A stretch of DNA of 64,000 nt from Olivibacter jilunii (GTDB taxonomy: Bacteria > Bacteroidota > Bacteroidia > Sphingobacteriales > Sphingobacteriaceae): assembly GCF_900607235.1 (NCBI RefSeq), contig NZ_LR027849.1:62001-126000 (forward strand). Direction: 5' to 3'. The notes under the pieces were generated by a model. The model worked only from the letters and a program-made list of their open reading frames with translations. It was not told the DNA's origin and did not search any database. Each line of letters opens with the position of its first letter. The stretch's first letter is position 1. Made by a program: the position numbers and the translations under genes. Shown here in pieces: positions 44,018 to 64,000 of this stretch.

Positions 44018-44062
44018 TACAAATGGATAACTTTATCCACTAGTACTGGATAAAGTTATCCA
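44004..44062. repeat. Three alternating copies of an inverted-repeat unit
   Basis: The unit ATAAAGTTATCCA occurs as plus (44004-44016), inverted (44024-44036) and plus (44050-44062). Arms 44004-44018 and 44022-44036 form a perfect 15-bp hairpin with a 3-nt loop. Arms 44024-44039 and 44047-44062 form a perfect 16-bp hairpin with a 7-nt spacer. The middle arm can pair with either neighbour, so two structures compete. It could be an operator, a small mobile hairpin element or an RNA switch. Confidence 0.7.
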
Positions 44063-44098
44063 GTATTAATGGGAAACTATGAAAAAAATGTATCACCG

Positions 44099-44491: not shown

Positions 44492-44561
44492 AACATTGAA
44501 TTTTTGTTGAAACAAAATTGCCCAATGGCTTACTCAATTTAATGCACCTAGGTTAACAAAA

Positions 44562-45191: not shown

Positions 45192-45326
45192 ATTGTTCCT
45201 TTTTGCCAATCCAACAACGATACATCGACTTAATTAATTCAAGTAGATCCCCTCATCAAGAGTCAGCTACCTTTTTCATACTTACTTCATAGGTTTCTCG
45301 ATATTTAATTAGTTTCATACCAAGTT

Positions 45327-45380
45327 TTTACCAGATTCTGATCAGGTTTATCTGATGAGAATCTGGTGATACCTGGTAAA
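45327..45380. promoter_or_regulatory. Long interrupted hairpin with an alternative pairing
   Basis: ACCAGATTCT (45330-45339) pairs with AGAATCTGGT (45358-45367), and inside it ATCAG (45341-45345) pairs with CTGAT (45352-45356), giving 15 bp with one mismatch and a 6-nt loop. TTTACCAG (45327-45334) can instead pair with CTGGTAAA (45373-45380). It lies upstream of the Crp/Fnr gene and downstream of the SnoaL-Atu4866 gene, so it may be an operator or a structured terminator. Confidence 0.5.
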
Positions 45381-45466
45381 GATCTGATAACGAGCGAAAT
45401 TGGTGGGGAGTTAGTAGGGGCTTGATACGTTCAACGCTGAAACCCTCATTATTGCACGGACCTTAT

Positions 45467-46237: not shown

Positions 46238-47046
46238 TGCTCTACTTCGCTGGTTATAAAATCTACTTTTTTATACACGATATCATAGGCATCACTACCC
46301 AAAAACAAATGAACCGGCGGTTTTTCTTCTTTGCTTATCGCAATCAATACTTCTGCTGCCTTTTCCGGATCATTGGGCTGATTGCCATTTATGTCGCTAA
46401 GGTGTGCCTGTTGGGATTGGCGGGCAGCTTCATACTCCTCAATGGTATGCTGAGGTGTTTTTACCGAACCTTTGGCGAGAAAATCGGTACGGAAATAACC
46501 GGGATAAACAACAGTAGCATGTACACCCAATCCTTTGACTTCTTCGGCCAAGCTCTCTGTAAAACCGACAACGGCAAATTTAGTGGCGCAATAGATGCCC
46601 CAACCCGGAAATGCACCGGAAAAGCCGCCAACAGAGGCGATATTGAAGATATGCCCCGATCTATTTTTGCGTAAGTAAGGCATGGCATTTCTGATGACAT
46701 TCAGCGAGCCGAAAACGTTGACATCAAAACTGTTTCGCGCTTCTTCATCTGTCAGTTCCTCCAATGTGCCTATTTGTCCGAAACCGGCATTGTTTACGAT
46801 AACGTCTAGCTGACCGAAATGGGCGATGCTTTTGGCAATTCCTTCCTTTACATGTTCATTGTCTGTTAAACGAACTTCCAGTGGTAGGAATACGTCTGAG
46901 ACTTCACCAACTTCAGCGATTAATGACTGGATGTTGCGGGAAGTGGCTACTACGCGATAGTTCTGCGCTAACAATTTTTTAACCAGTGATAGGCCTAAAC
47001 CTTTTGAAGCACCGGTAACTAACCAAACTTTTTTTGTTGTGTCCAT
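46204..47046 (-). CDS. Short-chain dehydrogenase/reductase
   Basis: The ATG at 47046 (MDTTKKVWLVTGASKGLGLS) gives 280 residues. Cofactor motif TGASKGLG, Arg in ATSRNIQSL suggesting NADP preference, NNAG (VNNAGFGQIGT), catalytic Ser (NIASVGGFSG) and YCATKFAV with Tyr and Lys. This matches the Bacteroidota SDR subfamily usually annotated as oxidoreductase next to AraC regulators. Its C-terminus overlaps the SnoaL-Atu4866 gene, and an AraC-type regulator gene lies 74 bp upstream on the same strand, probably controlling it. Confidence 0.9.
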   Translation of the reverse strand: MDTTKKVWLVTGASKGLGLSLVKKLLAQNYRVVATSRNIQSLIAEVGEVSDVFLPLEVRLTDNEHVKEGIAKSIAHFGQLDVIVNNAGFGQIGTLEELTDEEARNSFDVNVFGSLNVIRNAMPYLRKNRSGHIFNIASVGGFSGAFPGWGIYCATKFAVVGFTESLAEEVKGLGVHATVVYPGYFRTDFLAKGSVKTPQHTIEEYEAARQSQQAHLSDINGNQPNDPEKAAEVLIAISKEEKPPVHLFLGSDAYDIVYKKVDFITSEVEQWKSYTLSTAL

Positions 47047-47120
47047 ATGTTTTAATTTTTTATGATGACACAAAATTAAAGCGGCCGTAGCGGAACAATT
47101 AACGAAATGCTAACAATAAC

Positions 47121-48029
47121 TTACGAAATTCTAACATTGCGGAATTGGGTAGGGTTTATGTTCAAATGTTTCTTAAAAAAGTTGTTGAAATGGGTCACTT
47201 CGGTAAAGCCCAAGGCAAAGGCAATTTCTGATATATTCCAGGTGGTTTGTGTGAGCAAGATTTTAGCTTCCTGTAATAAGCGCTCAGCGATAATCTGTGA
47301 AGTGGTTTTTTCTGTGGTTTCTCTGATCGCTCTGCTTAAATGGTTGACGTGTATTGAAAGTTGATTGGCGAAATCGGATGCGGAACGGAACTGTACGCGT
47401 TGTCTGACGTCCTCAATGGGAAATTGCCTTTCCAGTAATTCCAGAAATAGGATGGATATTCGATGAGATGCATTGATTTCCTGTTTGTCAATTTTCTTTG
47501 CGGGTTTCATTTTATGGGTTTGATGTAAAATAGCAAACACCAGATTTCTTAATGCATCGTATTTATGTTCATAATCTGAGCTAATTTCTTCAAACATCTG
47601 CAGGTAAATCTGCTTGATGCTTTCAGCCTGCTCATCGTTGATTTCAAAAATAGGTGTACCGTTGGGCTGGAAAACTTCGTACTTGCTCAGGTTTCCGAAA
47701 TGGTGAAAAAAAGCGGGTGTAAACACACAGAAATAGCCGGATTGTTCGTCATCAAGCGATTCCCAGTTATAGGGTATCTGCGGGTTGGCAAATAATAATG
47801 CCTGCTTGGTTATTTCGATTTCTTTATCAGCATAATAGATTTTATTTCTGCCGATAATCAGGCTGATTTTGTAATAGTCTTTTCTGCTGTACGGAACCGG
47901 TTTGGGATGGGTGCCTGCGAAATCATCCAACTTGAAAACGTTAAAATGGCCAATCTCCCTACGGATATTGTCGGGTACCCAGTTGAGTTTGCTTTTGTAG
48001 AATTCTTCTATTGATTGCGTTTTCTCCAT
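47121..48029 (-). CDS. AraC-family transcriptional regulator
   Basis: This 302-residue protein has an N-terminal cupin-like sensor (about 20-170) and a C-terminal double helix-turn-helix (about 205-300: FANQLSIHVNHLSRAIRETT, WNISEIAFALGFTEVTHFNN, HLNINPTQFR). Normal length. It precedes the SDR and SnoaL-Atu4866 genes on the same strand, as in many Bacteroidota AraC/SDR modules, and most likely activates them in response to a small ligand. Confidence 0.92.
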   Translation of the reverse strand: MEKTQSIEEFYKSKLNWVPDNIRREIGHFNVFKLDDFAGTHPKPVPYSRKDYYKISLIIGRNKIYYADKEIEITKQALLFANPQIPYNWESLDDEQSGYFCVFTPAFFHHFGNLSKYEVFQPNGTPIFEINDEQAESIKQIYLQMFEEISSDYEHKYDALRNLVFAILHQTHKMKPAKKIDKQEINASHRISILFLELLERQFPIEDVRQRVQFRSASDFANQLSIHVNHLSRAIRETTEKTTSQIIAERLLQEAKILLTQTTWNISEIAFALGFTEVTHFNNFFKKHLNINPTQFRNVRIS

Positions 48030-48326
48030 GGGACAAAGTTACGAAAATCAAACAGAATTCGCTGGATGTTTGTCTGTGCGTATTCTGCAGCAAAGTATAC
48101 CGTTGATTTCACTTTGAATTGGTTGGGGCACCTGCTAAGACATGTTAATGATGGTAAAGTAACCAGGTATAGAAAAGAAAAGGTAATAAACATTGTTCTA
48201 ATGTTGCTATTTTATCCGTTGTATGCATAAATGAGTTAATTTTCATACGGATTGGATAGCCCATGTTGGATCTCTCCGTACGACAGCGGTACGGAGAGAT
48301 TTGATGCGAATGACCAGCGACCGGGG
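48030..48326. other. Intergenic region, no gene supported, stem-loop at its end
   Basis: Plus- and minus-strand frames of 60 to 70 codons exist here, but their products look random. The only clear element is the stem-loop at 48271-48301. Confidence 0.5.
48271..48301 (-). terminator. 12-bp stem-loop downstream of the giant gene
   Basis: ATCTCTCCGTAC (48271-48282) pairs perfectly with GTACGGAGAGAT (48290-48301) around a 7-nt loop, 25 bp beyond the giant gene stop on the minus strand. No T tract follows on that strand, so termination efficiency is uncertain. Confidence 0.6.
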
Positions 48327-51300
48327 CTAGGCTGTTACTTCGCATGTAAACGTGACTGCGGGGCCTTCGTTAACACCAGCCTTCACGCTAAACCTGCCGA
48401 TTGCATAGTAGGCATAAACACTGTAGCCTCCATAAAATTTTTCAAAACGTGCTATCCCATTTTGATCGGTTTGTACCATCGTTGGATATGCGCCGGAAGG
48501 ATCTACCTGTACGGCCATACCAGTAGGCTGTTCAAACGGACCGAGGCTTACATATGCATTTGCTATTGGCCGATCATGTTCGTCTGTTACAAGAACAACC
48601 ATTGGTGTAAATTTAGCGGATATAGGACCCCCACCACCCGCCGTACGGGCAAGCTTTTGGTCATTACCACTTATAATGGTGAGTTTCGCGTTTGGCAAAG
48701 GAGGTAGCGGTGGTGTGGGAAGAACTGTTAGTGAATATGTTTGTGCCTGCCCAAAACCAGCAGCGATAATGGTAAAATCACCTTGGTCATAGTAACATAT
48801 GACCGAATTGCCCGACAATTTTTCAAGTCGTGCAAATCCACTGCTATCGGTCAGGATTTTTACTGTCTTCGCTGCGCCACCCGGGTCAATTTGTACCGCC
48901 ATTGATTTTGGAAATTCACCTACAGAAAAAGTTACTTCTACACCTGGCACACCCACTCCTTTATCGTCCCGCACGGCAATGATTAATGGCTGGAAAAAGG
49001 CCTGACCTCCTGGAATGTGTGTCAGATTTGTACGTGGCACTGCTTGGTTATTGCCAGCTACGATACTGAGGCTAGCGGGGTTACCGGCGGCAGGCGTAAT
49101 AATGGGTTCTGAAAGTGCGGACCAAGGGCCGGGTGCCCCTGGATAGGGGAGCGTTAGGTAAACAACGGCCCCTGTCATTTTACTGCCGTAATGGCCCCTC
49201 CAGAACTTGGTGTCTTTGCCACTATGTTCAAAATATACCGAGCGAACGCCCTTTCCATAATCCGTAAATTGATGTGCTATGCGCTCCCATTTGTAGACCC
49301 AATCGGGTGTACTCGGTGCGATAACCTCCCCGCTGTCAAATCTGGCTATAGCTTGATTGTTAGTATCTCTTAGCTCGATATACATGCGATAAATGCCATT
49401 GCAATCGCTTCTGGAAGAAATCCAATCGGCTACTGTAATCAAAGGTGCTTCATCAAGTTGCGCTGCGGTAAAACCATTGGCTATTAGGTCGATGGTTTGC
49501 GCCTTTTTACACCATAGATAAGAAGTAACGAAGTTGTGTTGGCTTGTAGTACCGGGGCAGCTTTTAGCCGGTCCATCTTCAATGGCCCAACCGTTGCCAC
49601 CATTTTCCAGTATGTTCCAACCGCTGAAGTCGGCCGAGGCATCTCCGTTTTGTAAGAGTTGTGGCGGCGCAGGATTGAGCGCTCGGATACGGGCAATGTA
49701 GGCCGTATCTGCCTTAAGGTCGCTCAATAATACCTTTGCCCCTTGTTCATCATATTGAATAGGAGGCTGTGGATTCAATGGCATGCCATTGTTTGGATCA
49801 ACAAGCTGCGCCTCATAATGGGTAGCAGCTAGCCATTGATCTTGGGGGATAATTTTCAGCGTATCTCCCGCAAGGGATAGTAAAGGCGCTTGAGGTGTTT
49901 CAATCGGGTTATAGTGGATCACATCTGAAAGTGTCCAAATACTATCGATGAAATTGCTTGCAGTAGCGTGTGTACGTACTTGGATATCCTTCCCTGCCAC
50001 CGAAGTGTCTAAGGTATAAGAAGCGGTATAACCGATGTTATCTTCTTTTACCATTTGTGTCGCCTCGTTTGAAGGTGTGCCATCTATAACCAGCTGTGCC
50101 CAATAAGCAGTTGCATTTGCTACTTCTTGGCTTAAGGTAGCGCTGAGTTTATTGGCGGTAAGGCTAAGGCTAGCTGGTTCTGTTGCTGCTAGCCTAGCTA
50201 CCGTATTAGGCGCAGGTTGCCAAGCGCTTGGAGCGTAACCCTCTTTTATGGCGCGAGCTTGTACCGTAAAAGTGTTGCCGGTTTCATCAGGTATGGTAAA
50301 GTTTGCTTGGTATTTCGGCGGATCGCTTTCTGCGAGTTGCATGGGTATGATCTCACCCAGGGGTGTAGCATCTGCCAGCAGTTGGGCTTCGTAGCCCGTG
50401 GCCTCTTTGGAAAGTTGCGCCAGCTCCGCCTGAATTTCATTGCCGTCTTTTATTAGGAGTGCTTGCAAGCTAGGTGCGGGTAAATTGATAATAGTTACTG
50501 GATCACTTTCTCCAGGTAAACTGTTGAGTTTGTTAGCATCGCCCAAAATTTGTGCCCAAGCTCGGTAAATTCCATTAGGCAAGGAAGGAAGACCGTCTGC
50601 AGGCCAGCTACAGCTATTGCTTGTTCCGCTAACAGTTCGCCTAGCTAAAACAGTGGGAGTATCCACTTCTTGGACTTCTACAAGGATTTGTACGCTTGGC
50701 TCGGTTTGGGCCCAACTAACGCGCAGTTCTTGCGTGGTTGTGATCTTTGCCCCGCCGGGTCCGTCTTCTTCTGCTGTCGCGGAGATGAGCCAGCTTAACT
50801 GAACCTCTTGCGGTGTGGCTTGCCGCTCGACCATATTACTGCTGGCTGAAAGCCCGCTGTTGATTGTTTGCGCATCAGCAAGGGTGAGCACACGGGCGCT
50901 AAAGGGGCCGATATCGCCATCAAAGAGGTCTGGCAAGATTTCCCAGTGATTTTGATCCGTTGCAAAGGAACTGGTATCTGCCAGCTCTTCGCTGCTGTAT
51001 AGATTTGCCGTGTAACCTTGATTCGGATTGACTTGCTCCCAATCGGTAACAACTTTACCGTCTACAATTGACAGGGTAGGAGCAGAAGGCATGATCGCCC
51101 GATTAATGTTTTCAGGTGAAGAAGTGGGGTTACCGTCTAGTATCTGGGCGTTGCCGCAAGCTTTGACCTGCACGGTGAGCGAAGTTCCGCTTCCTTGTAA
51201 CGAAGTAAGCGAAATATCAGACTGGAGGGTGTTTGGAGCGATGTTGTCTACATAACAAACTGAAGCTTCTTTTTCGTCTACCACCCGTACCGCATAGGTG

Positions 51301-54300
51301 ACAACTCCGTCAACAGCACTCCAGTTGCATTGAATATAGCCGGCTTGTTTATCTAGCATGCTACCGACGGTTTCCGGCGAAGCGAGTTTAGAAAGATTGT
51401 TGCTCGTAGCTGCGGGGGCGTTTATGGTGTTTACACCGTTGCCGATGGCCCACAATATTGCGTTAACATTACCCGCTGCTAAGTTATACGTATCAACTGA
51501 ATAGTTTCTGTCGTCTTTGGGAATACTGTATTGTTGCTTATCGGTGCCTTGTATCACTTCGAGTAGGTAGTGGTCAACACCTGTCTGACTGTCCTGCCAA
51601 CTGGCTTGCAGCGATTGTTGATTGGCGGCGAGGGTGAAGGCGCTTACTGCGTGCAGTTTTTGCATCGTATTTCCGGATTGCACGCTTTGACTCGGAACAA
51701 CCTCTGCGTTGTGCTGTTTGGTGGCTGTTACCTTTGCAGCATAAGTGCCTGGTACCCAATTTTCGGTTGTGGTTGTTATCGGGCTTGTTTGGGCAGGGCT
51801 TTGCCAGCAGGCCATGCCGTCTGCCGTGTTAAATACGGTTATCTCAAAATTTGTAGCTCCATCCTGCGCCCAGCTAATGGCAAGTTTATCATCGTTAGGT
51901 GTATAGCTCAGCTGTACATCATGCGGATCCGCCAGTTTCGGAATAGTGACTGATACCCAATCCGATTTTTTCGAATCACGAGTACTCCTCAAATCTGCAC
52001 GGTAGCTACCACCATTAAATTGAAGGGAAATTGTTTCGCTACCTTGATAGGTATTCATACCGAACTGTTGTATAGTGCCTATCTGCTGCCCATTTGGATC
52101 ATAAAAGGCTAGTTCGTACCCGACGGCATAAGAGGCTCCGTTCCATTGTGCAGTAAGCGTAGTTCCCGCCAAGCTAAGTGGAGGGCTGGCAAAACTTGGT
52201 TTTTCCGGATCGGGATCATTTCCGCCACCACCACCTTTATTGTGCACTAGGTATCCATTTGCGTGGTAACTGTTATTGCCAGTCAGCAGAAAATTGTAAA
52301 GTGGTGTCAGTGGATCAGCCTCAGTACTGTCGATGCTTAATAGCTCCTCCTGTTTACCATTTATAAGAGCGAGTATATCGCCTACCTCCAGCATCCCAAC
52401 TTGCAGCGATGGATTCTCTGCCGCGGTTGCCAAGGGATCAATGGCTTTCCATCCTTCTGTGGTGTAAAAAGGGTGCTCGGCGGTTACGAAATAATCGCCT
52501 TTATTCAGCGCATAGAGTTTACGGTTACCTAAAAGGGGATGGTCGAAACCGATCACCTCGTTTATCTGTCCATCCATTCCTAACAGTTTATCGCCAAGTT
52601 GAACCTGTTCGATGGGCTTGGTAGAACCGTCTATCAGTAGTACCTGCGTGCCTGCAATAAAACAGGTGCTCCCTTTATTATGCGCCAGCAGTTTATTGGC
52701 AAAGTAGGTATTATTGCCGCTTAGCTTAAAATTATATAACGGAGTATGAAAATCGGCCTCAACCGAACGGATCAAGCTGAGCACCAAACGTTGCCCATTA
52801 GCAAGTAGCAGCTTATCACCACCTTCAAGTTTGGTAACGGGCAGATTTGGATTTTCTCTTTTGGTGGCCTCGGGATCGATGGCTTTCCATCCCGTTTCAG
52901 TTAAAAAGGGATGTTCGGCTGTTACGAAAAAGGGGCCATCATTGAAAGCGTACAGCTTTCTTTTACCAAGTAGCGGCCGATCGTAGGCCACTACGGTGTT
53001 AATCTGTCCATCATAGCCCAAGAGCTGATCGCCGATGCCGATCAATTCAATAGGCTTTACACTCCCGTCTGCTAAAATAACTTCGGTACCAGCTGTGAAG
53101 CAAGAGGAGAATATAGCCGCTGCCGCAACTGCACCTGCTGTGATTGCTGCGGCAGCGGCGGCTCCGCCTGCTGCAAGTGCCGCTACGCCGCCCGCCGATG
53201 TTACCGCTGCAGCTCCGGCTGCAATAGCTTCGGCAGTGAGTGCATCTATAAGTCCTTCACATAGCCACTGGGCCGCCAGTTCTGCAGCCTGTTCTACAAA
53301 TAACACAGCGGCTAATTGTGCCCATTGCGCTCCATTATTGACTAAGCTTTTAACGAAAGAGCTTGCTGATTCTTTTAATGCCGCTGCAATATAATTACCC
53401 AAATCATCGAAAGAGGTATTGTCCGGCAACGGAATCCGCACGGTATCGGGAAAGTCAATGGTGCTGACCTGCTGATTGGCTACGAGCACGGAAAATTGCC
53501 CATCCAATACAAAGTATAAGGTGTATTCGCCGCCCTCATCTTCCACAGTATCAAAGCTTGGTGTCATGGTAAACTGGTTGCTGTAGGCAACATCGGCGAC
53601 TAAATCGACAATGGCGCCGCAAACGAAGGTGGGGTCGGTTGCTTTCATTAATTTGGAAACCTCATCAGCTATATCAATAATCTTCTGTATGCTCTCGTAT
53701 AGCTGCGTAAAGGACGGCCAGTTATTGACGACGAAACCTTCGCTTTGACAGTAGGTAAAATCAATCGAAAGGTTGCCGAAAATCGGTACAGCTTCATCTG
53801 CTGTTAATTTTGCACCGATCTTGGTTTCAGTACGACCGTTGGATAAGCTCTTCGAACCAATGCTTATATCTGCTGTACCGAAGGGATATTCAAAGAAATT
53901 GAAACCTGTAGCGAAACCAAAAACAGGTGTTTCTGCTTTGGTGTTCAAGGTTAAGAGAGGTCCGCTGATATATTGTTTATTGCCTTCGTTTGCTTTTTGT
54001 TTACCGGCTAATTCCAATATAAATATAGAGATTGGACCGCTAAGCCCTAGACTTGCTTCCATCCCTATATCCTTTTGTACATTAATACGTAATTGTAAGC
54101 TGATGGTATAGAGAAAAGTTAAATCAATGGTGGCTTCTAAGTTATAGCCGTTTACAAAACCGTTACCCGCAAAATGGGCAGGATCTGCTTGGGCATCATA
54201 ATAATATACGCGCGATGGACTTTGATCGCTATTGGCTTTGAATACAATATCAAAGAAATCAGTAGGCCAAGCTTGACCGTTACCTACCAAGTTTCCGATG

Positions 54301-57300
54301 AGACTGCTGATGGAAAAATCCTGACTAAGGCTAACGGATGCAAGCATAGGATTTCCATTTAATAGGTAAAGGTTGGCCTGGAGGAAAATTGCAGCAAGAA
54401 GTTCGATCCGCCCGGATACTTGTAGTTCCAGTTGTTTTTCCTTCCGTGTTTCTGTTTGAAAATAATATAGTACATCGAGCCCGAGGTCGCGCAGTACAAA
54501 TACCGGTGGCAAGTTCTCTGGAAACAACTGGATCGTGACACTCGTATCGGGCGTGGTGGTTAAGGTGAAATGGGTTTGATCTTTATTTACCAGTAAATTG
54601 CCTATAAAAGCATAAGTTTCTCCAAATACTTGAAAACTAATCGTTCCGTTGAGTTTAAATTCAGTTGACGCGGTTTGTGTGTACTCCAGAAGGACGCCGG
54701 GATCTTCGTTAGCTCCACTGAACTGAACGATGCCGGAAATGATGGAAAACGGAGCGATTACGGCCCGAAAAATAGTTTTTGCTGAACCTTGATTGGGTTC
54801 GGCTTGGGTTGAGATAAAAGCATAGAGCGTCACGTCCAGGCCACTTGTGCTATCTGCATCTAGTTGTGTAAATACGGCAAAAAGTGGCCCGGTAAAGAGC
54901 AGTTGCGCGTAAAGATGGACTCCTTTTTCTAAGGTGTCGGTTGGTAAGTTACCCTGTTTTATCGGATTTTGAACGGTACCCGGTTTGTTGTTGATGCTTA
55001 GTATTTGGTCAACCTGCTGAACCAGATCTGCTACAGACGGCAGGGTATAGCTTGTGATGGCGATACTGGCATTTCTTACAAGTAAAATGTTATCAATGGG
55101 TGCAAGCGCACTGAAAAGACTGGAAAATTTAAAATTTTCTGCCAAAGCGAAGGCGAAAAGATAACCACGTTCATCGCCATCTGCTGTTTTCTGCGCAAGT
55201 AGTATGGCATCGCCGAAATTGGCGATGGCACCGTATAGGAAAAATTGGTTTTGTGTTTGGTTAAAATATACAACGGCTTGGGCGTAATTGACTGCCTGCA
55301 TGTCATTGGGCGTAAGTACTGACCAGCTGGTTTGGTCAGTATCCGGTTGATCTGCCACTAATCCATCGCCGAAAGTGCTTATCTGTAAGGAAGCAATCTC
55401 ATTTACGGTTAGGGTACCGGTAAAAATGGTGTCTATGCCCGCAGAGCCAAGTTGCAAAGTAAGCAGCACTTGAAGGCTGTTCATATCCAAGAGCGCACGC
55501 AAATTAGCTTTATAGAAGTTTTTATTGGCGGGATCTTCGGGTTCGAGGCTTTTTAAGGCCACTTCGGCATCTAAACCAAACATCTTTAGTTCCAATCCTA
55601 AAAACGGTACGGTCCAATCGGCCGTCTGGTTGTTCGCAGGCGGCGTAGAGGGCATAACGATAATTGACCCGCTGGCTTGAAAGTTACCGGTTTCGGGGGT
55701 CATACGACCTTCTAACGTTCTAATGGTAAGGGTAGGCAAGCCAATCGAATTTGGAATTACAAATAGCTCGTTGAGGTGTATTGCCTGCAAAAATGCATCG
55801 AAGTTAAAACGCTCTTCGCTCAGTAAGCTAGCGGTAAATACCCAATGCGGTGCCTCTGAACTGTAATCTGCCGTAAAAACAATGGGTGCGCTAGATACAA
55901 AAAGCGTTACGCCGAGATGCATTGTAAGTGTGCTATGATTGGGATCTTCCGGCACTACTTGTACACTTGATTCAATACGGGCATTATCGAACACTAGAAG
56001 ATTACCTATTGCATGCCATGGAGCACTGTTAACAATCGTGAAGTCGATCTTTTCAACTATTTCTGTGGTGATATTGAAGCTAATGTTTAACGCGGTGAGA
56101 TCAAAACCTTTCCCAAAGGGCATAAACGTTTCTGGAATGTATTCGACCACCACAGCAGGCAGCATCCAATTGGCAAGATCGCTTAGTCCGGGTAGATGGA
56201 TCGTGTCTTTTACCGCTAATGTAAATTGCCAGTTTTTCGCTAAATCATCCCGATACGCCTGTATCCATATAGCGTTGTTGAAAATATGGACAAAGGCATT
56301 GAAGGTGCCGGTACTGTTATACCCTTTGTCTTCTTGACTTATATTCAATGAGGCATATACGCTAGAGAAACTGAGGAAATCAGGCAGTACCACCCAGTCT
56401 TGTTTGCCCTTCAATGCAAATTGAAAATTTTTAATGTTAGCCGGTTGGGGCATAAATTGGATGCGCAACTGCGTTAAGCTAAAATTGCCAAAAGTATTGA
56501 AGCTGGCGGGTAACCCATCGGAAGATCCGCCAATTAATTTTAATAATTCGCCTATACCTGGAAACTCGATCGTGCTACCGGGTTTTAGGCTAATGGTCCA
56601 ACCCGTTTCACCTGCAGGAATGGGCATGCTTATCTCCATGTCTGCCACCGTACCTATCTTCATGAAGCCGTGTAGTAAGCCGGTGATGGTATAGTTAGCC
56701 GCTACATCTACGAACATATTAACGTCCCAACCATATACTTCGAAATCGGCTAAAATTTTCCAGCTTCCGATTTGAGAGAGGTCGAAGCTGACAGAAGACA
56801 GTGCCGGCGTAAAGGGATTGAAGGCAATTGCAATTTCATTGATGGCAATATTGAGCGAGCTATCTACCAAGCCTTCGGGGAGCGGTGCCAAAATATCTTG
56901 TTCCGAATGTCCTCCTTGCGGCCATATAAAGTTTGCTAGGTCAGTTAAGGTTGGTAGCTGCACATTGTCTGCGCTAATGCGGAGTGTCCAATTGCCTTCC
57001 AGCGGAATTTGCATAACAACTTTCAGATTGGTAACACTGCCAATGGCAATTTCGCCGCTCACGAAGGCCTGCAGAATAAAAGGCGCTGGATTATCTTCTG
57101 AAGGCACGAACGTGGTGCTCAGGCCGAATTGAAAACCGCCCACTGCAATATTGGGGCTAGTCAATATCTGCCAGTACCGGGCTGTGCCATCTTCATTAGG
57201 CAAGAAAGTAATGGCTGCAAAAAATTGGGCCCATAGTTGTGTACTGGGATCAAATTGGATGTAGTTACCGCCCACATGTAGTTGCAGCAAACTGGTGAGA

Positions 57301-58874
57301 GAAGGCGGGAAGATACCGGATAGCGCATTCCCTCCCGCCAACCGAATGGCATCTTCCATCGTGGCCAGCTGAATCCCTTCTGTTGTGTCGTTACTTAAAT
57401 ACCAGTTGGTATTGGCTGCATTCGGAAGGGTTAATTTGGCCGGATAGTTGAAGGATGCTGATAGGGTATACATACCGGATACAAAAGCGGTATTCACCAC
57501 CTGATTTGCTGCGGCCACCTCGCTGCTTAGCGAAAGGATAGGAGATACCAAGGTGGCTGCTTCTAAACCTATTGGTGCAATAGATAAGGTGCCGGCCAAT
57601 TCGCTGTTCATGCGCAATTGGTAACCATCACTCTTTTGTGTTACCTTACCGCGTAAGGCAAGAGCATCTTCTGTCGTGTATATATTGCGAAGTACCGCTA
57701 ATGAGCCCTCGTTCAGTGATGCAACCCAATACAGGTTAAGCCCGGGATCGAGCGCACCTATCGGCGCCACGTTCTGTTGCGCATAGGAGCTGGCAATCAT
57801 GGCTTTTTCTGACAGTATTAGTCCATCAAAGAGTTCGCTCTGTGTTTGCGGGAAACTAGTGGATGGCAACCAATCGTCCGGAAGTGGACTTATGTGTAAG
57901 GTGAAATCGAGCCGCTGATTATCGGTCTCTACCACTTGAATCCGGATTGGCTGATTTGTTAGGTTATAAATTTGGGTATCGCCGTTTATGGTAAGCTGAT
58001 CTCTCGTCTGTTCTAGTGATGCATTGCTAAGTTGCAGCGTCTGAGCAAATACCGCCGCATCAAACAATGGAGCTACGACATCGCCGAAATCTGTGTCGAA
58101 TATAGTAAGTTGACCGTCCTTCAACCGTTCATTCAACGTAATGTAAAGTTGATCTAGGAGGTCGAGCGTTGTAGGCACTTCTACAGCTACGGGATAGGTG
58201 AAATTTTCTTTTTGGTACGTTCCTTTAAGGTAAGCTAAGTTGAGCGCTTGCTCGTTACCCGATTGAAGGAGTAGAGTGGTAGTGGTTAGCTGCAAATTAA
58301 TCGGTTGCTCTAAATGCGCTTGTAGGCTTACTTGAGTAGCTGCCTCGCCTGTCTGGATCATCCCTCGCAAGGCTACCGTTTGTATGGCTGTGTTTAATTG
58401 TTGCAGACTGGCCAAAGCTGCGGTGGTCGTGCTGTTTGAGATGAAATTTAAACCAGCTTCCAAATTAGCTGAAGGAAGTTCAATGGCGTGTGCGTAGGAA
58501 CAGCCAATAAGCCAGGTTTGCTGTAAATCGAGATTGTCAAAGTACGTGTTCTGCAAATCTGGAAAGCTATCGGGAAAACTCCATCCCGTTAAGGCTTCCT
58601 GATGCTGAATACTAAATTGGAGAGTTTCATTTTTTTCGATAACAGTGAGTTGCGCTTGTAAGGAGCTTGACAAGTTCCAAAGCGCCGCTTGTCCGGTGAC
58701 CAGCAAAGGGCTTCCTTCGGGACTTATGCTAGTAGCCGTAAAATTTAGAGTATCAGTATTTAATGTAGACAAAAAGATCTGGCTGTTAGCGCCAAAATCT
58801 GCTGCATATATAGCAAGCTTTCCGTCGGAAAGGCGTTCCTGTAAGGTAGTTCTAAAAGTGTCTAAAAGTCCCAT
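48327..58874 (-). CDS. Giant 3515-residue protein: beta-repeat half, twin Hint domains, FN3-like array, FBA domain, Ig-like tail
   Basis: One uninterrupted frame from ATG 58874. Residues 1-1725 are beta-rich with two related N-terminal repeats (LQERLSDGKLAIYAADFG at 11, LNERLKDGQLTIFDTDFG at 247) and then units of about 130-160 residues marked by LPTLTDLANFIWP (640), FPGIGELLKLIGG (771) and LPGLSDLANWMLP (894). Residues 1873-1924 are Ala/Gly-rich and hydrophobic. Hint domain 1 spans Cys1925-Asn2066 and Hint 2 Cys2071-Asn2212, each with TAEH and C-terminal HN. Residues 2226-3068 form an FN3-like array, 3073-3240 match the F-box-associated (FBA) domain, and two Ig-like domains occupy 3266-3386 and 3396-3513. 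There is no classical signal peptide. It is last in an operon with an exported metallo-beta-lactamase-fold protein. A self-processing, surface or secreted glycan-binding role is inference. Confidence 0.9.
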   Translation of the reverse strand: MGLLDTFRTTLQERLSDGKLAIYAADFGANSQIFLSTLNTDTLNFTATSISPEGSPLLVTGQAALWNLSSSLQAQLTVIEKNETLQFSIQHQEALTGWSFPDSFPDLQNTYFDNLDLQQTWLIGCSYAHAIELPSANLEAGLNFISNSTTTAALASLQQLNTAIQTVALRGMIQTGEAATQVSLQAHLEQPINLQLTTTTLLLQSGNEQALNLAYLKGTYQKENFTYPVAVEVPTTLDLLDQLYITLNERLKDGQLTIFDTDFGDVVAPLFDAAVFAQTLQLSNASLEQTRDQLTINGDTQIYNLTNQPIRIQVVETDNQRLDFTLHISPLPDDWLPSTSFPQTQSELFDGLILSEKAMIASSYAQQNVAPIGALDPGLNLYWVASLNEGSLAVLRNIYTTEDALALRGKVTQKSDGYQLRMNSELAGTLSIAPIGLEAATLVSPILSLSSEVAAANQVVNTAFVSGMYTLSASFNYPAKLTLPNAANTNWYLSNDTTEGIQLATMEDAIRLAGGNALSGIFPPSLTSLLQLHVGGNYIQFDPSTQLWAQFFAAITFLPNEDGTARYWQILTSPNIAVGGFQFGLSTTFVPSEDNPAPFILQAFVSGEIAIGSVTNLKVVMQIPLEGNWTLRISADNVQLPTLTDLANFIWPQGGHSEQDILAPLPEGLVDSSLNIAINEIAIAFNPFTPALSSVSFDLSQIGSWKILADFEVYGWDVNMFVDVAANYTITGLLHGFMKIGTVADMEISMPIPAGETGWTISLKPGSTIEFPGIGELLKLIGGSSDGLPASFNTFGNFSLTQLRIQFMPQPANIKNFQFALKGKQDWVVLPDFLSFSSVYASLNISQEDKGYNSTGTFNAFVHIFNNAIWIQAYRDDLAKNWQFTLAVKDTIHLPGLSDLANWMLPAVVVEYIPETFMPFGKGFDLTALNISFNITTEIVEKIDFTIVNSAPWHAIGNLLVFDNARIESSVQVVPEDPNHSTLTMHLGVTLFVSSAPIVFTADYSSEAPHWVFTASLLSEERFNFDAFLQAIHLNELFVIPNSIGLPTLTIRTLEGRMTPETGNFQASGSIIVMPSTPPANNQTADWTVPFLGLELKMFGLDAEVALKSLEPEDPANKNFYKANLRALLDMNSLQVLLTLQLGSAGIDTIFTGTLTVNEIASLQISTFGDGLVADQPDTDQTSWSVLTPNDMQAVNYAQAVVYFNQTQNQFFLYGAIANFGDAILLAQKTADGDERGYLFAFALAENFKFSSLFSALAPIDNILLVRNASIAITSYTLPSVADLVQQVDQILSINNKPGTVQNPIKQGNLPTDTLEKGVHLYAQLLFTGPLFAVFTQLDADSTSGLDVTLYAFISTQAEPNQGSAKTIFRAVIAPFSIISGIVQFSGANEDPGVLLEYTQTASTEFKLNGTISFQVFGETYAFIGNLLVNKDQTHFTLTTTPDTSVTIQLFPENLPPVFVLRDLGLDVLYYFQTETRKEKQLELQVSGRIELLAAIFLQANLYLLNGNPMLASVSLSQDFSISSLIGNLVGNGQAWPTDFFDIVFKANSDQSPSRVYYYDAQADPAHFAGNGFVNGYNLEATIDLTFLYTISLQLRINVQKDIGMEASLGLSGPISIFILELAGKQKANEGNKQYISGPLLTLNTKAETPVFGFATGFNFFEYPFGTADISIGSKSLSNGRTETKIGAKLTADEAVPIFGNLSIDFTYCQSEGFVVNNWPSFTQLYESIQKIIDIADEVSKLMKATDPTFVCGAIVDLVADVAYSNQFTMTPSFDTVEDEGGEYTLYFVLDGQFSVLVANQQVSTIDFPDTVRIPLPDNTSFDDLGNYIAAALKESASSFVKSLVNNGAQWAQLAAVLFVEQAAELAAQWLCEGLIDALTAEAIAAGAAAVTSAGGVAALAAGGAAAAAAITAGAVAAAAIFSSCFTAGTEVILADGSVKPIELIGIGDQLLGYDGQINTVVAYDRPLLGKRKLYAFNDGPFFVTAEHPFLTETGWKAIDPEATKRENPNLPVTKLEGGDKLLLANGQRLVLSLIRSVEADFHTPLYNFKLSGNNTYFANKLLAHNKGSTCFIAGTQVLLIDGSTKPIEQVQLGDKLLGMDGQINEVIGFDHPLLGNRKLYALNKGDYFVTAEHPFYTTEGWKAIDPLATAAENPSLQVGMLEVGDILALINGKQEELLSIDSTEADPLTPLYNFLLTGNNSYHANGYLVHNKGGGGGNDPDPEKPSFASPPLSLAGTTLTAQWNGASYAVGYELAFYDPNGQQIGTIQQFGMNTYQGSETISLQFNGGSYRADLRSTRDSKKSDWVSVTIPKLADPHDVQLSYTPNDDKLAISWAQDGATNFEITVFNTADGMACWQSPAQTSPITTTTENWVPGTYAAKVTATKQHNAEVVPSQSVQSGNTMQKLHAVSAFTLAANQQSLQASWQDSQTGVDHYLLEVIQGTDKQQYSIPKDDRNYSVDTYNLAAGNVNAILWAIGNGVNTINAPAATSNNLSKLASPETVGSMLDKQAGYIQCNWSAVDGVVTYAVRVVDEKEASVCYVDNIAPNTLQSDISLTSLQGSGTSLTVQVKACGNAQILDGNPTSSPENINRAIMPSAPTLSIVDGKVVTDWEQVNPNQGYTANLYSSEELADTSSFATDQNHWEILPDLFDGDIGPFSARVLTLADAQTINSGLSASSNMVERQATPQEVQLSWLISATAEEDGPGGAKITTTQELRVSWAQTEPSVQILVEVQEVDTPTVLARRTVSGTSNSCSWPADGLPSLPNGIYRAWAQILGDANKLNSLPGESDPVTIINLPAPSLQALLIKDGNEIQAELAQLSKEATGYEAQLLADATPLGEIIPMQLAESDPPKYQANFTIPDETGNTFTVQARAIKEGYAPSAWQPAPNTVARLAATEPASLSLTANKLSATLSQEVANATAYWAQLVIDGTPSNEATQMVKEDNIGYTASYTLDTSVAGKDIQVRTHATASNFIDSIWTLSDVIHYNPIETPQAPLLSLAGDTLKIIPQDQWLAATHYEAQLVDPNNGMPLNPQPPIQYDEQGAKVLLSDLKADTAYIARIRALNPAPPQLLQNGDASADFSGWNILENGGNGWAIEDGPAKSCPGTTSQHNFVTSYLWCKKAQTIDLIANGFTAAQLDEAPLITVADWISSRSDCNGIYRMYIELRDTNNQAIARFDSGEVIAPSTPDWVYKWERIAHQFTDYGKGVRSVYFEHSGKDTKFWRGHYGSKMTGAVVYLTLPYPGAPGPWSALSEPIITPAAGNPASLSIVAGNNQAVPRTNLTHIPGGQAFFQPLIIAVRDDKGVGVPGVEVTFSVGEFPKSMAVQIDPGGAAKTVKILTDSSGFARLEKLSGNSVICYYDQGDFTIIAAGFGQAQTYSLTVLPTPPLPPLPNAKLTIISGNDQKLARTAGGGGPISAKFTPMVVLVTDEHDRPIANAYVSLGPFEQPTGMAVQVDPSGAYPTMVQTDQNGIARFEKFYGGYSVYAYYAIGRFSVKAGVNEGPAVTFTCEVTA

Positions 58875-58892
58875 GGTTTATAATTGAGATGA

Positions 58893-60164
58893 CTACAGAT
58901 AAGGTACGAGTTGACTGCCCGGATTTTGGTGACTGATAAATGCTTGAACGGTCTGCAAAAACTGTTGCCTGTCTATAGCTAACAAAGGTTCAGTATGGAA
59001 GGTAGTATCAAGCCATTGTTCGTTTCCCGAGATGATATAATTGTATTGTTTAGTTAACACTACGCGGAACCCATCGAAAACTTTTAAGTGATAAAGCTTG
59101 GTATCGGCATTATAGATGGTAGCACAGGCATAAGTGTCGTAGCGAAGTGATAAGCGAAATTTTTCAATCGATAGATTCTTAATGTAATATCCATATCGGC
59201 TACTTAATTCACCGTTTAAAGCGTTCAAATCTGGCCTACCATATATCAATTGTGCTTCTTCCCATTCTTCCTGCAGGTCGTCATCTAACACTGCGTAATA
59301 GGTTGTTTGCCCATCATTCCAAACCGCAAGGAATGTTTTAGAGCGTATGCTTCTATTAGCTTTTTCCGCGAAACTCTCATAACTAATTAAAAAATAAGAG
59401 ATGCCATTTATGGTTTGTGTGTTTTTTATTTGAGCGTTGTTGGGAATAATCCCCTGATCTGCAAGATATGTCTTAATAAAGGGAGCCTGGAACGGAACAA
59501 TTGCTGGAATAGCCGTTCCCCTGAGCGTCGATAAATCAAGTGTGTTGAAATAAGTTAGATTGTTGAAGTCTACCGGCAGCCCTTGATAGCTCAATGCGGT
59601 CTCTAAGGTCATGAAGGCGCAGAGATTATCATTCCCTTTACGCGTAATGCCTGCTGGATTATAGCGTGTGTATCCTCCGTAAAGTTGCGGATACTTGTAA
59701 AGCTGCGGTAAAGTTAGTTGTGGATCGTCTTGTAGGGCCCACAAGGGATACTCCGGGAACCATAAATTTTTGAGAGGATTATCGTATTGCTTGGGAATAT
59801 TCATCCATTTTAAAAGCTCGGGTGCATGCGATTGCGAATTGAATTGATTAGTGAAAAGGAAGGGGCTTGTCGGATCTTTCAGTTGAAAGGGCGTTTGCAA
59901 ACCGTTGATCAAAAAATCGCTTACTTGAATAAAACAGATCTGGTCGTAAGCTTGGTCTCGCGCCAAAGGCGATAAAGAGGGATCAAAAAAGGCTTTGATG
60001 GTGTAGGTAAGGTCGTCTAAACGAGTAAATCCGACTACCAACGGGTTGGAGGAGCCGCCAAAGGTCTGCGCGGTTTGGCCAATCCGGATCGCTGAGGTCC
60101 CTTGACCCTCGTATACACCGGTAACTACTTTGTATCCATTTGCGGTACTTAACGTTAATGCCAT
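58893..60164 (-). CDS. Uncharacterised 423-residue protein of the giant-protein operon
   Basis: A clean ATG-started frame sits 18 bp after the metallo-beta-lactamase gene and 18 bp before the giant gene. No signal peptide or membrane helix is visible. The N-terminal part (MALTLSTANGYKVVTGVYEG, VVGFTRLDDLTYTIKAFFD) looks like a beta-sandwich. The middle has an aromatic, Pro-rich segment (KNLWFPEYPLWALQDDPQLT) and a Cys within NLCAFMTLETALSYQGL. The rest is mixed alpha/beta (SYFLISYESFAEKANRS). I do not recognise a family. The fixed spacing to the giant gene points to a functional partner, for example a chaperone, adaptor or enzyme acting on it. Confidence 0.75.
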   Translation of the reverse strand: MALTLSTANGYKVVTGVYEGQGTSAIRIGQTAQTFGGSSNPLVVGFTRLDDLTYTIKAFFDPSLSPLARDQAYDQICFIQVSDFLINGLQTPFQLKDPTSPFLFTNQFNSQSHAPELLKWMNIPKQYDNPLKNLWFPEYPLWALQDDPQLTLPQLYKYPQLYGGYTRYNPAGITRKGNDNLCAFMTLETALSYQGLPVDFNNLTYFNTLDLSTLRGTAIPAIVPFQAPFIKTYLADQGIIPNNAQIKNTQTINGISYFLISYESFAEKANRSIRSKTFLAVWNDGQTTYYAVLDDDLQEEWEEAQLIYGRPDLNALNGELSSRYGYYIKNLSIEKFRLSLRYDTYACATIYNADTKLYHLKVFDGFRVVLTKQYNYIISGNEQWLDTTFHTEPLLAIDRQQFLQTVQAFISHQNPGSQLVPYL

Positions 60165-60182
60165 GATAATTGGTGTTACTGA

Positions 60183-61604
60183 TTATTTAAAATAGACGAG
60201 GTCTGCATTGTTGGTTTTCACTTCGTGGCACTCCATCTTAATATTCCCCTCGGCATTTGGGGTGCGCATTACGTGACTTACCATAGTGCCCGGTAGTTCG
60301 CCGTTCCAGAAAACGGTAAACCTGCTTTTTTGCTCAATATCCTCGTCATTAACAATCACCACGATATCGCCTGCAATAACGCCATTGCTTTTGGCGGGAT
60401 TTCCTATATTGACGCGTGCTGAGTCGGTAAAGCCATCCATTAAAGAAGTAAGAAAATAGCGTTGAAGGGAGTTGTCAACTGAATCAGGTGTGATACCTGT
60501 CCAGCTAGAGATATCCCATTTAGGGTAAATATGCGTGTCCAACGCTTCGATTACTTCTTCATTGGGATGTCCATGTTTATCACCACAGGAGATAAGACCG
60601 GTTATCGGTTTAATTAAGCTTAGAAAATACTCACTGGTGCTGATGGTACTGCCATGATGACTCAGCTTAAAGGAACAGACATGTCCCTTGGTAACATCAT
60701 TGCCGTTATGGACCCATTTGAAGTTCGATTGATCGTTAGCCTTTAACGCTTCTGCTAATGGGGATTCCATATCGATATAACCCCCACTTTTCCAACCACC
60801 AAGGTCACCTGCGCTGTAGAAACGAAAATTACCATATTGCAAGATCCAAGCTAAGCCCAGATCGTTCTGATTGCTTCCTGACCGTGGTGCCGGTTTTGTG
60901 GTGGTATCACCGAGAACGTAGTTGTTGGTGGCTACACACAGTAGTTGGATCTGTTTTTTGCCCGTACCGAATAAATTGAGTGTTGTGGCTAAATTGGTGG
61001 TGTTTCGTGTCATAGGCGCTTTGGTTACCGCTTTTACGTACTTGCCATAAACACTGGGTGATTTATTGGAGGTGGTTGAGCTTGGGAGCGGCTTTACCAG
61101 CCCCCGATCCCAGGAGCCTTTATTTGAATTGAAGTTTACAAGGACACCGGGTAAACCGCCTATATGATCCTGATGGTAATGTGAAGCAATCATATAGTTC
61201 AGCGAGTCGATCCCCATTTTGGTCATATAGAAGTTGATTTTGTTCGCTTGCTTACTGCCGTCGCCTCCGTCAATTAACACGGCATTAACGACAGTACCAT
61301 TCAGCGAAACGCTGCTGTCTACCGCTAATTGAAGCATATCGGTACGATCGGCTGGGACTGTTTGCCCGGCAGCTATAATCGCCTGCCTCACTTTGGCTGT
61401 GTCTCTAACGACTACGAGTGCGGCGTCACCGTGCCCCACACTCATCTGGTGGATCTCCAGCGTTTGAGCGGTTGTTTTTGCCAGATTGAGTATAGTGAGA
61501 AGCAAAGAAAGCATCATAACCTTTCCTTGGTTGGGAAAAGATGGATTGAGCATGCATCTACAGAAAACCTGCATACAAAGGCGTAGATTAATTTTGATTG
61601 TCAT
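60183..61604 (-). CDS. Exported metallo-beta-lactamase-fold protein, ComEC-like
   Basis: I start at the ATG at 61604 (473 residues). The longer frame to 61745 runs through non-coding-looking sequence. A signal segment (MMLSLLLTILNLAKTTAQ) precedes the metal-binding fold. Key motifs are SVGHGDAALVV, the HxHxDH site in ASHYHQDHIGG, SAGDLGG and LSHHGS. The GHGDA and HHGS pattern is that of the ComEC/Rec2 C-terminal domain and related secreted hydrolases. A phosphodiesterase or nuclease is therefore likelier than a beta-lactamase, although substrate is unknown. First gene of the operon with the 423-residue protein and the giant. It could supply a processing or degradative activity in the periplasm or outside the cell. 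Confidence 0.88.
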   Translation of the reverse strand: MTIKINLRLCMQVFCRCMLNPSFPNQGKVMMLSLLLTILNLAKTTAQTLEIHQMSVGHGDAALVVVRDTAKVRQAIIAAGQTVPADRTDMLQLAVDSSVSLNGTVVNAVLIDGGDGSKQANKINFYMTKMGIDSLNYMIASHYHQDHIGGLPGVLVNFNSNKGSWDRGLVKPLPSSTTSNKSPSVYGKYVKAVTKAPMTRNTTNLATTLNLFGTGKKQIQLLCVATNNYVLGDTTTKPAPRSGSNQNDLGLAWILQYGNFRFYSAGDLGGWKSGGYIDMESPLAEALKANDQSNFKWVHNGNDVTKGHVCSFKLSHHGSTISTSEYFLSLIKPITGLISCGDKHGHPNEEVIEALDTHIYPKWDISSWTGITPDSVDNSLQRYFLTSLMDGFTDSARVNIGNPAKSNGVIAGDIVVIVNDEDIEQKSRFTVFWNGELPGTMVSHVMRTPNAEGNIKMECHEVKTNNADLVYFK

Positions 61605-61699
61605 AATTTGAGAAAATATGTGTAATAATATGAAAAAATGTGTGAAAAACACTGATTTACTTCTATTATTAGCGATGGTAATTACATTAAGCTTAAAGC

Positions 61700-61912
61700 G
61701 TGAGACCTGCAGAAATTGCATTAGCGTGGCTACCGGCACATACATTTTTTATTGTGCCTATTCCCAGTACATCGAAATTGCTCCGCTTGCAGGAAAACCT
61801 TGGAGTTGTTGAGTTTTGCTTGATACACGAGGAGCTAAGCAATATCAATAAGGCATTAGCAGTATTAAAACTACAGACGGTACAGATACAGCAAGCAAGT
61901 GGCTCGACGTAA
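61700..61912 (+). pseudogene. C-terminal remnant of an aldo/keto reductase gene
   Basis: The plus-strand frame reads PAEIALAWLPAHTFFIVPIP, then STSKLLRLQENLGVVEFCLI, then HEELSNINKALAVLK. This is the conserved end of aldo/keto reductases (TPAQIALAWLLA..., IVPIPGTTKLxRLEENLGA, LTxEDLxEI). Everything upstream of the fragment (about 250 residues, with the catalytic Tyr) is missing, and the preceding bases are AT-rich and non-coding. Only the last 70 or so codons survive, read against the flanking minus-strand genes. The loss implies a deletion or insertion event exactly at the upstream boundary of the giant-protein operon. Confidence 0.8.
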
Positions 61913-61922
61913 AGGCTAATTG

Positions 61923-64000
61923 CTATTTTACATCATTTTCCCGAGAATTGTTTTTTATCACAACGGCTTCATAGTCGGAAAGCGTGGGTACGGTGAAGCG
62001 TATTCTGCCGTCTTTCCAAGAATAATCCAAAGCTTGATTAGCTTTTAATAGGTGAACCCCTGTCGGTTTTTCAGCTAAGGCAATATCAAGGTTTATACCA
62101 TGCAAATCGTTCGGCTTAAAGTAGGTATTCCCGCTGAAACCAGTTAGGTTGATCAGGTGCAAGATATGCCCTTCTGCCTGAAAATCGACCAAATGATTTG
62201 CATCATCATTGCGTGCATATTGTTTCCATATCATTTCTACACGTTCGGGAGCGTCGGTCTTTAATAAGCTTTGGGCTGCTGGATAGATCGCCGATAAGGT
62301 GTTTAGAAATATCGCTTTATGTTGCTCATAGCCTTTTAGGTAATAATGGCGCCCAATGGCGGGCACTAGAAGGGCATTTTTTTGTTTTTCAACGGTGTTG
62401 ATGGCCAGTGCTTGATGACCGATGGGTTCATGCCCGCCTACAATCTCCGGTGGGCCCGGGCGACCTTTACTAAGGATGGGCAGGTAGTTGCTAACCGATG
62501 AACTGAAGGTGTAAAGCGGCATTGGATAGGCTAAATGAATCATTTGCTGACCGCCCAATGTCTTAAAAATGCTGCTGTCATCAACCTGTAGGTAATTGCC
62601 GGCGGCATCATGGTTTATTGTTGTTAAAGAGGCTCCAAATTGCGCCTTCAGAAAGGCGGGATGATGTGAAAAAGCAGCTCCGGTTGCAAATAATCGGGTA
62701 CCTTTTTTTACGGCAACCGATAAGGCATGTAAATCTAAGCTGTCAAGCGAGGGTATGCCAGGGATAATGATAACTTTATATTGCCCAAGTCTTTCGGTTT
62801 GCGCATGGGGGCGGCGGTATTCCATCACATCGAAGGGAATATGGGTCTCTTTTAACATCAGCTGGATGCCTCTGTATTCTTCTCCCTCTGCGCCGTGGGC
62901 CCATAAGCTGGGGGAGAGAATCAATACCTTGGCCGTGGAGCGGTAATTGCCATAATAGGGTTCATGTGTTTTATGGAACTGGTAAATGGAACGAATAATG
63001 GGGAAGTTGCGCGGATCGGTATTGTTATTGAATTCGCCCATCATGCTGATATCTAACCCGGATCCATTGGCAATGTTTTCATATAGCCTGATGCGAACTT
63101 CTTCAGGACCTACACTGTTAAAGCGCGATTGAAAGGAAATCTGTTGGATGGATGCATTGCTGATAATGTGCGATGGATAAGAACCCATGGCATTACTGAC
63201 ATTGTCTGATGCATTGTAAGGCCAATAAGGGAGGCTGGTATTACTTTGCGATTCGTGGCGGATAATATCTACATATTGATCGGTGTAGGTGCAAATAGCG
63301 ACGGCTGGATTTTTGGTTTTAACCAGTTTGTGTAATCGCTGTGCCCAGTCGTCTAAAGTCATCTGTTTAAAGGCCTGGTACTTTTTAAATACGGGGTCTT
63401 GTGTGTCTTCTTTTTCCGGTAAATCCATGCCACTGAATGCTTTAAAACGTTTCTGATCATAGGGGTTGTGATCGATACCGTAGTACTTTCCGATGTAAGC
63501 ATTGTTGGTTTGATAACCGGGCATGTTCAGAAAAATACCATCAATGGGAAAGCGGTCCATGATTTCGCTTACGATTTCAAACGACTTTTCCTGTACATAA
63601 GGCGCATTGATAGATACGACGTAAATATCATCATTAAACATACGTTCTCCTTTGTTAGATAGGTAGCACCAATCGGGATGCGCTTCAAAAACGGATTTAT
63701 GTAATCTGCTGAAATCTACGCGTACGATGACACGGATGCCCTGTGCATGGCAACGATCAATGATTTCGCCCAATAGGGTGTCGGTGGCATAGGGATTTCG
63801 ATAATGATAGGGGAGCGCGGTGGGGTAAAAGGCCATGATGCCACCGGCGTTGATGATCAACGTGTTGGCTGATGCTTCAACGAGTTGGTCTACAAAGGCC
63901 TTCGGTTCGATACGTTCGGCGGTAAAGGCAGGAAGATTTGTTTGAATAACCCGCAGGTTATTGCGGCTCCACCAGGGGGTATCGGCTGTTTGGCCTGAGG
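61923..64000 (-). CDS. Glycoside hydrolase-like protein, probable GHL6 type (N-terminus beyond window)
   Basis: The frame continues to the right edge, and the start lies outside. It reads through TPWWSRNNLRVIQTNLPAFT into a TIM-barrel (TLIINAGGIMAFYPT, IIDRCHAQGIRVIVRVDFS, AHPDWCYLSNKGE, PIDGIFLNMPGYQ). This is the pattern of hypothetical glycosyl hydrolase 6 (GHL6). A Rossmann-like middle domain follows (KVLILSPSLWAHGAEG, YKVIIIPGIPSLDSLDLHAL) resembling the beta-galactosidase trimerisation domain, then a C-terminal beta domain (HILHLINLTGFSG). Catalytic residues cannot be named safely. Likely an exported or cytoplasmic enzyme of polysaccharide use. It stops 10 bp from the aldo/keto reductase remnant. 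Confidence 0.8.
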   Translation of the reverse strand, partial: SGQTADTPWWSRNNLRVIQTNLPAFTAERIEPKAFVDQLVEASANTLIINAGGIMAFYPTALPYHYRNPYATDTLLGEIIDRCHAQGIRVIVRVDFSRLHKSVFEAHPDWCYLSNKGERMFNDDIYVVSINAPYVQEKSFEIVSEIMDRFPIDGIFLNMPGYQTNNAYIGKYYGIDHNPYDQKRFKAFSGMDLPEKEDTQDPVFKKYQAFKQMTLDDWAQRLHKLVKTKNPAVAICTYTDQYVDIIRHESQSNTSLPYWPYNASDNVSNAMGSYPSHIISNASIQQISFQSRFNSVGPEEVRIRLYENIANGSGLDISMMGEFNNNTDPRNFPIIRSIYQFHKTHEPYYGNYRSTAKVLILSPSLWAHGAEGEEYRGIQLMLKETHIPFDVMEYRRPHAQTERLGQYKVIIIPGIPSLDSLDLHALSVAVKKGTRLFATGAAFSHHPAFLKAQFGASLTTINHDAAGNYLQVDDSSIFKTLGGQQMIHLAYPMPLYTFSSSVSNYLPILSKGRPGPPEIVGGHEPIGHQALAINTVEKQKNALLVPAIGRHYYLKGYEQHKAIFLNTLSAIYPAAQSLLKTDAPERVEMIWKQYARNDDANHLVDFQAEGHILHLINLTGFSGNTYFKPNDLHGINLDIALAEKPTGVHLLKANQALDYSWKDGRIRFTVPTLSDYEAVVIKNNSRENDVK

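Follow-up and report, generated by a model that had tools for sequence, protein, structure and literature searches.

A three-gene accessory cassette of Olivibacter jilunii with a giant Hint- and FBA-containing protein, related to an operon family found in five bacterial phyla

Do three adjacent genes of Olivibacter jilunii, one of which encodes a protein of 3515 aa, belong to one system, and if so, of what kind? From the DNA letters alone, the original prediction had been a self-processing surface or secreted system that recognizes a glycosylated target. The window (the whole stretch of DNA analyzed here, 64 kb) contains three intact ORFs on its minus strand, which encode an MBL-fold hydrolase, a 423-aa protein, and the giant; the next gene encodes an AraC-type regulator (47121-48029). 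The features of the locus are, in window coordinates:

42801-61951, no strand: variable locus; its two flanks are conserved in genome G004 of the same genus, its content is not
60183-61745, minus: MBL-fold hydrolase, 520 aa, with signal segment and the motifs HxHxDH and HHGS
61164-61184, minus: metal-binding motif SHYHQDH, MBL residues 188-194
60648-60659, minus: HHGS motif, MBL residues 363-366, common to ComEC-type MBL domains
58893-60164, minus: 423-aa orphan protein, no recognizable family
48327-58874, minus: giant, 3515 aa, no signal peptide seen
57423-58874, minus: R1 region of the giant (residues 1-484), two copies sharing 31% identity, which match related giants at their N-terminus
55866-57407, minus: R2 region of the giant (residues 490-1003), four copies of ~125 aa with homology to N-terminal parts of giants from other phyla
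53175-55865, minus: giant residues 1004-1900, no detected relatives, Ala-rich end
52677-53102, minus: Hint domain A, residues 1925-2066, with Cys1, TAEH, and terminal His-Asn
52239-52664, minus: Hint domain B, residues 2071-2212, starting four residues past Hint A
49677-52232, minus: giant residues 2215-3066, repeated segments, FN3-like by inspection only
49155-49661, minus: FBA lectin-type domain, residues 3072-3240
48762-49076, minus: Ig-like repeat 1, residues 3267-3371
48378-48689, minus: Ig-like repeat 2, residues 3396-3499

As had been noted, both intergenic gaps are identical (exactly 18 bp). The gap lengths of related operons (see below) differ, so the equality carries no special meaning. 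Intact ORFs, and two Hint copies whose divergence is much greater at synonymous than nonsynonymous sites, show that the cassette is not a product of chance. Both flanks of the locus (window positions 41354-42801 and 61951-64000) are kept in G004, but the DNA between them comprises 12 kb of other genes there versus 19 kb in the window. At this site, G004 carries regulators, an SDR, and an excinuclease-like gene. The 423-aa gene, the N-terminus of the giant, and the MBL gene were jointly absent from the relatives searched, the same genus included (as for all distribution results given here, this covers the sampled genomes only). Codon use of all three genes is ordinary for the window; recent import, as judged from base composition, was therefore rejected, and the cassette, if imported at all, would be long settled. 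The cassette is real, accessory, and conserved by parts.

Everything that had been ascribed to the first gene, the HxHxDH and HHGS motifs and a signal segment, was found, the latter as an N-terminal hydrophobic segment (export signals were judged by eye throughout, not by a signal-peptide predictor). Its start had been misplaced: position 61604 is an internal ATG, the ORF opens at 61745, and the likely signal peptide begins later still. The protein scored just above the cut-off of Pfam Lactamase_B (24.8 versus 22.7 bits), and the best named profile was TIGR00361 (ComEC/Rec2) with 39.7 bits, which is far below the cut-off of that model (190). The label "ComEC-like" is apt for the HHGS part of the enzyme; it does not hold for motif II, where ComEC has an aspartate in place of one metal-binding histidine (PMC8579336) and the window MBL has HxHxDH. 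It shares with the C-terminal MBL domain of ComEC, a proven phosphodiesterase and nuclease (PMC8579336), and with phosphorylcholine esterase the MBL fold and the HHGS region; unlike the ComEC domain, it is a stand-alone protein predicted to be exported. No close relative was detected in 119 other genomes by single-sequence search. As haloarchaeal ComEC-like proteins score about equally, similarity to this MBL proves little by itself. In the window genome and in genomes G195 and G670, the only close signal-bearing HxHxDH MBL is the one encoded in the operon of a giant, and all other genomes yielded only weak superfamily matches to an MBL profile; since this profile was built from these same three genomes, the result is informative solely as to how scarce others are.

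The second gene had been described as lacking a recognizable family, and this held for Pfam, NCBIfam, PHROGs, PADLOC, and PDB, with the exception of one sub-threshold match (Rep-A_N, 19.7 bits, cut-off 26.7) that was taken as chance. A papain-like fold, suggested by a cysteine at the start of a helix, was dropped because a catalytic histidine was not present at the expected strand and the model was poor; the AlphaFold2 model of the protein reached a pLDDT of only 35, too poor for a fold search. No relatives were found in 199 other genomes by single-sequence search, and no signal peptide was seen.

The N-terminal half of the giant, used as a single sequence, had no relative in 199 related genomes and nothing convincing in 394 genomes of the phylum; three weak matches (E 0.001-0.008, two of them with stops) were judged to be chance. 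AlphaFold2 modeling of one R2 unit (pLDDT 42) was likewise too poor for a fold search. Identity as a DUF6603 giant was considered and discarded (PF20248 was unmatched in the giant's own genome at E ≤ 10). The FN3-like parts proposed for the giant could not be substantiated, as Pfam FN3 did not match even at E ≤ 10 and only internal repeats were evident. As for the Ig-like parts, two repeats are indeed present, with weak matches (Big_1, 24.7 bits, below the cut-off).

The giant had been credited with one Hint domain. Matches above the Pfam cut-offs (Hom_end_hint, 84.7 bits; Hint, 37.2 bits) bore out the assignment, but not the number: there are two adjacent, intact copies, 64% identical to each other. 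A weak PT-HINT match was also observed. Between the copies, synonymous divergence is near saturation (pS 0.75) while nonsynonymous divergence is limited (pN 0.29), which argues that selection has long kept both. Both copies retain Cys1, TAEH (TxxH), and a terminal His-Asn followed by the non-nucleophilic Lys. A-type bacterial intein-like (BIL) domains show this pattern and can cleave at the C-terminal Asn (PMC7765530). In contrast to A-type BIL domains, those of the giant are arranged in tandem, separated by a four-residue linker, and embedded in a giant protein. Self-processing of the giant is plausible from these residues.

The FBA domain of the giant, as originally noted, was confirmed (Pfam PF04300, 157.2 bits versus a cut-off of 32.4). 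It matched the structure 1umi (E 2e-36), and 40% of 164 aligned positions, spanning the whole domain, are identical to mammalian Fbs1 (FBXO2). Glycan stacking in Fbs1 requires Phe177, Tyr279, and Trp280 (PMC4603797), and the corresponding positions in the giant are all aromatic (Tyr, Phe, and Trp, respectively). Glycan binding by this domain is thus fairly likely. It is not assured, because FBG3 binds no glycan despite having Tyr, Tyr, and Trp in the pocket (PMC4603797). Unlike Fbs1, the giant contains no F-box or Skp1 link, and its FBA domain is flanked by repeats on one side and Ig-like domains on the other. FBA is rare in the phylum: a survey of 394 other Bacteroidota genomes gave no match above the cut-off (one weak match contained a stop). 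Plasmid, phage, and viral collections yielded no FBA match. The simplest reading is that the domain was captured from a eukaryote.

Relatives of the giant emerged when a profile made from the R2 repeats of the window alone was used. It matched 3 of 294 other genomes (E 1e-9 to 1e-5), in each case within a giant (G195, G670, and G197; frames of 2856-3480 codons). In G195 and G670, the order is gene A (1159-1219 aa), MBL, giant; in G197, gene A and a gene for a 498-aa protein precede the giant. Searches with gene A and with the giant of G195 converged on the same eight plasmid records (two from Azospirillum, and one each from Mycetohabitans, Nostoc, Lysinibacillus, Paenibacillus, Tistrella, and Embleya), in each of which the two lie close together. 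An independent search of 365 Bacteroidia with a gene-A profile identified eight loci in seven genomes, always next to a giant, and recovered the loci found with R2. The resulting family comprises 16 loci in five phyla (Bacteroidota, Pseudomonadota, Cyanobacteriota, Bacillota, and Actinomycetota) and follows a common plan, in which gene A (~1100-1300 aa) comes first, followed by an enzyme that varies and a giant (~2100-4100 aa). Phages were searched for the family with no result. It is apparently undescribed: consistent with the original statement that a system with this gene set was not known, no published account of either was found in open papers.

A recognized hydrolase is encoded in only about half of the family loci. 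Five of the 16 have an MBL (G195, G670, G652, Tistrella, and Embleya; in the last two, the assignment is based on HxDxDH motifs, HHG, and low-scoring profile matches), and three others have an endonuclease/exonuclease/phosphatase (EEP; A. lipoferum, Nostoc, and G684). A domain corresponding to the 498-aa protein of G197 is fused to, or precedes, the giant in Azospirillum B510, Mycetohabitans, and G291, and the remaining loci have small genes or none between gene A and the giant. MBL and EEP enzymes have different folds, and both often cleave phosphodiesters. The repeated choice of one or the other therefore points to a phosphodiester substrate. To this extent, the original interpretation gained support, as a phosphodiesterase-type partner recurs beside related giants.

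Individual loci vary around this plan. In G652, two consecutive MBL genes separate gene A from the giant (L048:5811-7941). G670 has two different loci with gene A and a giant (L050:3818-18121 and L029:4229-19587), one of which includes the MBL, the other small genes and glycosyltransferase-like genes. Upstream of gene A in Paenibacillus sp. 37 lies a gene for a NAL1/trypsin-like protein (L034:8401-9381). In A. lipoferum 4B, the operon of gene A, EEP, and giant adjoins type III-B (Cmr) CRISPR genes, possibly by coincidence (L036:1-22754). The Tistrella and Embleya operons open with a separate gene for a Hint protein, adjoining gene C; gene C has an FN3 match in G652 (sub-threshold in Tistrella), and its relative in Nostoc matches Laminin-G (a lectin). 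LysM domains occur in related giants.

How does the window cassette relate to this family? The order R1 then R2 is kept in the giants of Nostoc (R1 4-187, R2 268-389) and G652 (R1 50-232, R2 277-393), as judged with R1 and R2 profiles made from the window alone. Conversely, profiles of family blocks matched the R2 region of the window (E 2e-15) and nothing convincing past residue ~1070; some divergent family members gave no score in the R1/R2 region. Profiles of the conserved family core (residues ~600-3146 in G195) found no match in the window giant, and gene A is absent from the operon and, by the gene-A profile, from the whole window genome. Common to both are the R1/R2 N-terminal scaffold, Hint, which is a separate gene in Tistrella and Embleya, and, less clearly, an MBL partner (in the window one gene away from the giant, with the 423-aa gene between). 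Unlike the family operons, the window lacks gene A, the family core, and LysM, has Hint fused into the giant, and alone has FBA in it. By these comparisons, the window cassette is a relative of the family, not a member. Its giant appears to unite parts that are separate elsewhere (scaffold, Hint, and glycan-binding module), a parallel in which homology is shown for Hint and R1/R2 only.

Two expectations were not borne out. Conserved co-occurrence of the three genes was not found, as the 423-aa gene occurs nowhere else and only the N-terminal part of the giant and the MBL recur together. Secretion of the giant and the 423-aa protein, which had been envisaged, is unsupported; as already observed for the giant, no signal peptide was seen, by eye, on either of them or on related giants. 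What stood of the overall interpretation is the unmatched gene set, the recurring phosphodiesterase-type partner, the Hint residues, and the FBA aromatics.

Tentatively, we favor an accessory operon that follows a recurrent plan, in which a giant repeat scaffold is accompanied by a phosphodiesterase-type partner, the Hint domains cut, FBA binds N-glycans, and the MBL hydrolyzes phosphodiesters. The Hint domains would cut or splice near residues 1924/1925, 2066/2067, 2070/2071, and 2212/2213 and thereby divide the chain into an N-terminal scaffold (~1924 aa) and a binding module at the C-terminus (~1300 aa); this division is well founded in the sequence. FBA would bind the chitobiose core of N-glycans and tie the module to eukaryotic glycoproteins, a step that appears fairly well founded. 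The exported MBL would act at the same site, hydrolyzing a phosphodiester of nucleic acid or of a polymer decorated with phosphodiesters; its action outside the cytoplasm may be considered moderately founded. Lysis, or a route not yet recognized, would have to bring the giant to the outside. Against this explanation speak the lack of a signal peptide on the giant and the 423-aa protein, the absence of gene A and the core, and the precedent of FBG3.

The exported MBL, whose motif II keeps the histidine that ComEC swaps for aspartate, would also suit a structural system of the cell envelope or matrix, with a Hint-matured scaffold or adhesin and an MBL that trims or recycles an envelope polymer, in the manner of phosphorylcholine esterase, or extracellular DNA. 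LysM domains in related giants and, by inspection, glycosyltransferase-like genes after the giants of G804 and the second G670 locus (G670b) agree with this, but giants without signal peptides, the absence of a known envelope anchor, and the rarity of the cassette in relatives make it rather unlikely. The Hint domains themselves may suggest antagonism: such domains mark pretoxins, the weak PT-HINT match fits, and variable enzymes beside a constant giant with sporadic, partly plasmid-borne distribution recall polymorphic toxins, which also bear Hint among the modules of a giant chain. Hint would then free a C-terminal piece directed against a rival or eukaryotic grazer, and the MBL or the 423-aa protein would be effector or protection. 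However, the piece following Hint consists of FBA and Ig-like domains and not of a toxin, neither an immunity gene nor a secretion signal was recognized, and PADLOC returned superfamily matches only, which renders such a cassette unlikely.

Might the three genes just be unrelated neighbors, the MBL an ordinary one and both the giant and the 423-aa ORF orphans? The 423-aa gene recurring nowhere and the superfamily-wide homology of the MBL would agree. But an MBL lies beside related giants in five other operons, and all three genes are missing together from relatives, so that mere neighborhood is quite improbable.

Beyond the preferred reading of an accessory operon, it is conceivable, if doubtful, that the family is an undescribed modular system spanning phyla, made of giant scaffolds, interchangeable MBL or EEP enzymes, and Hint, of which the window branch has fused Hint, captured a eukaryotic N-glycan lectin, and thereby become a machine that cleaves itself and targets eukaryotic glycoproteins. 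If so, some of the largest bacterial proteins would be paired with interchangeable phosphodiesterases in an undescribed operon family of five phyla, and a bacterium would be using an N-glycan-binding domain of the animal Fbs type. The domains are of known kinds; knowledge of its function may yet show the operon family to be categorically new.

Some plasmid Hint matches led elsewhere. Those in Pantoea and Gloeothece belong to another, two-gene cassette and were excluded from the family. This cassette encodes an unknown protein (1157 and 1305 aa, respectively; identity 55%) together with a Hint protein of 800 aa (identity 41%; L011:4474-10362 and L010:3848-10380), and the Gloeothece copy adjoins type III-B CRISPR genes. 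In Aeromonas, an unannotated ORF of 236 aa (L009:8938-9648) encodes a signal segment, one Hint domain ending in HNKGG, and a Gly/Ser-rich tail.
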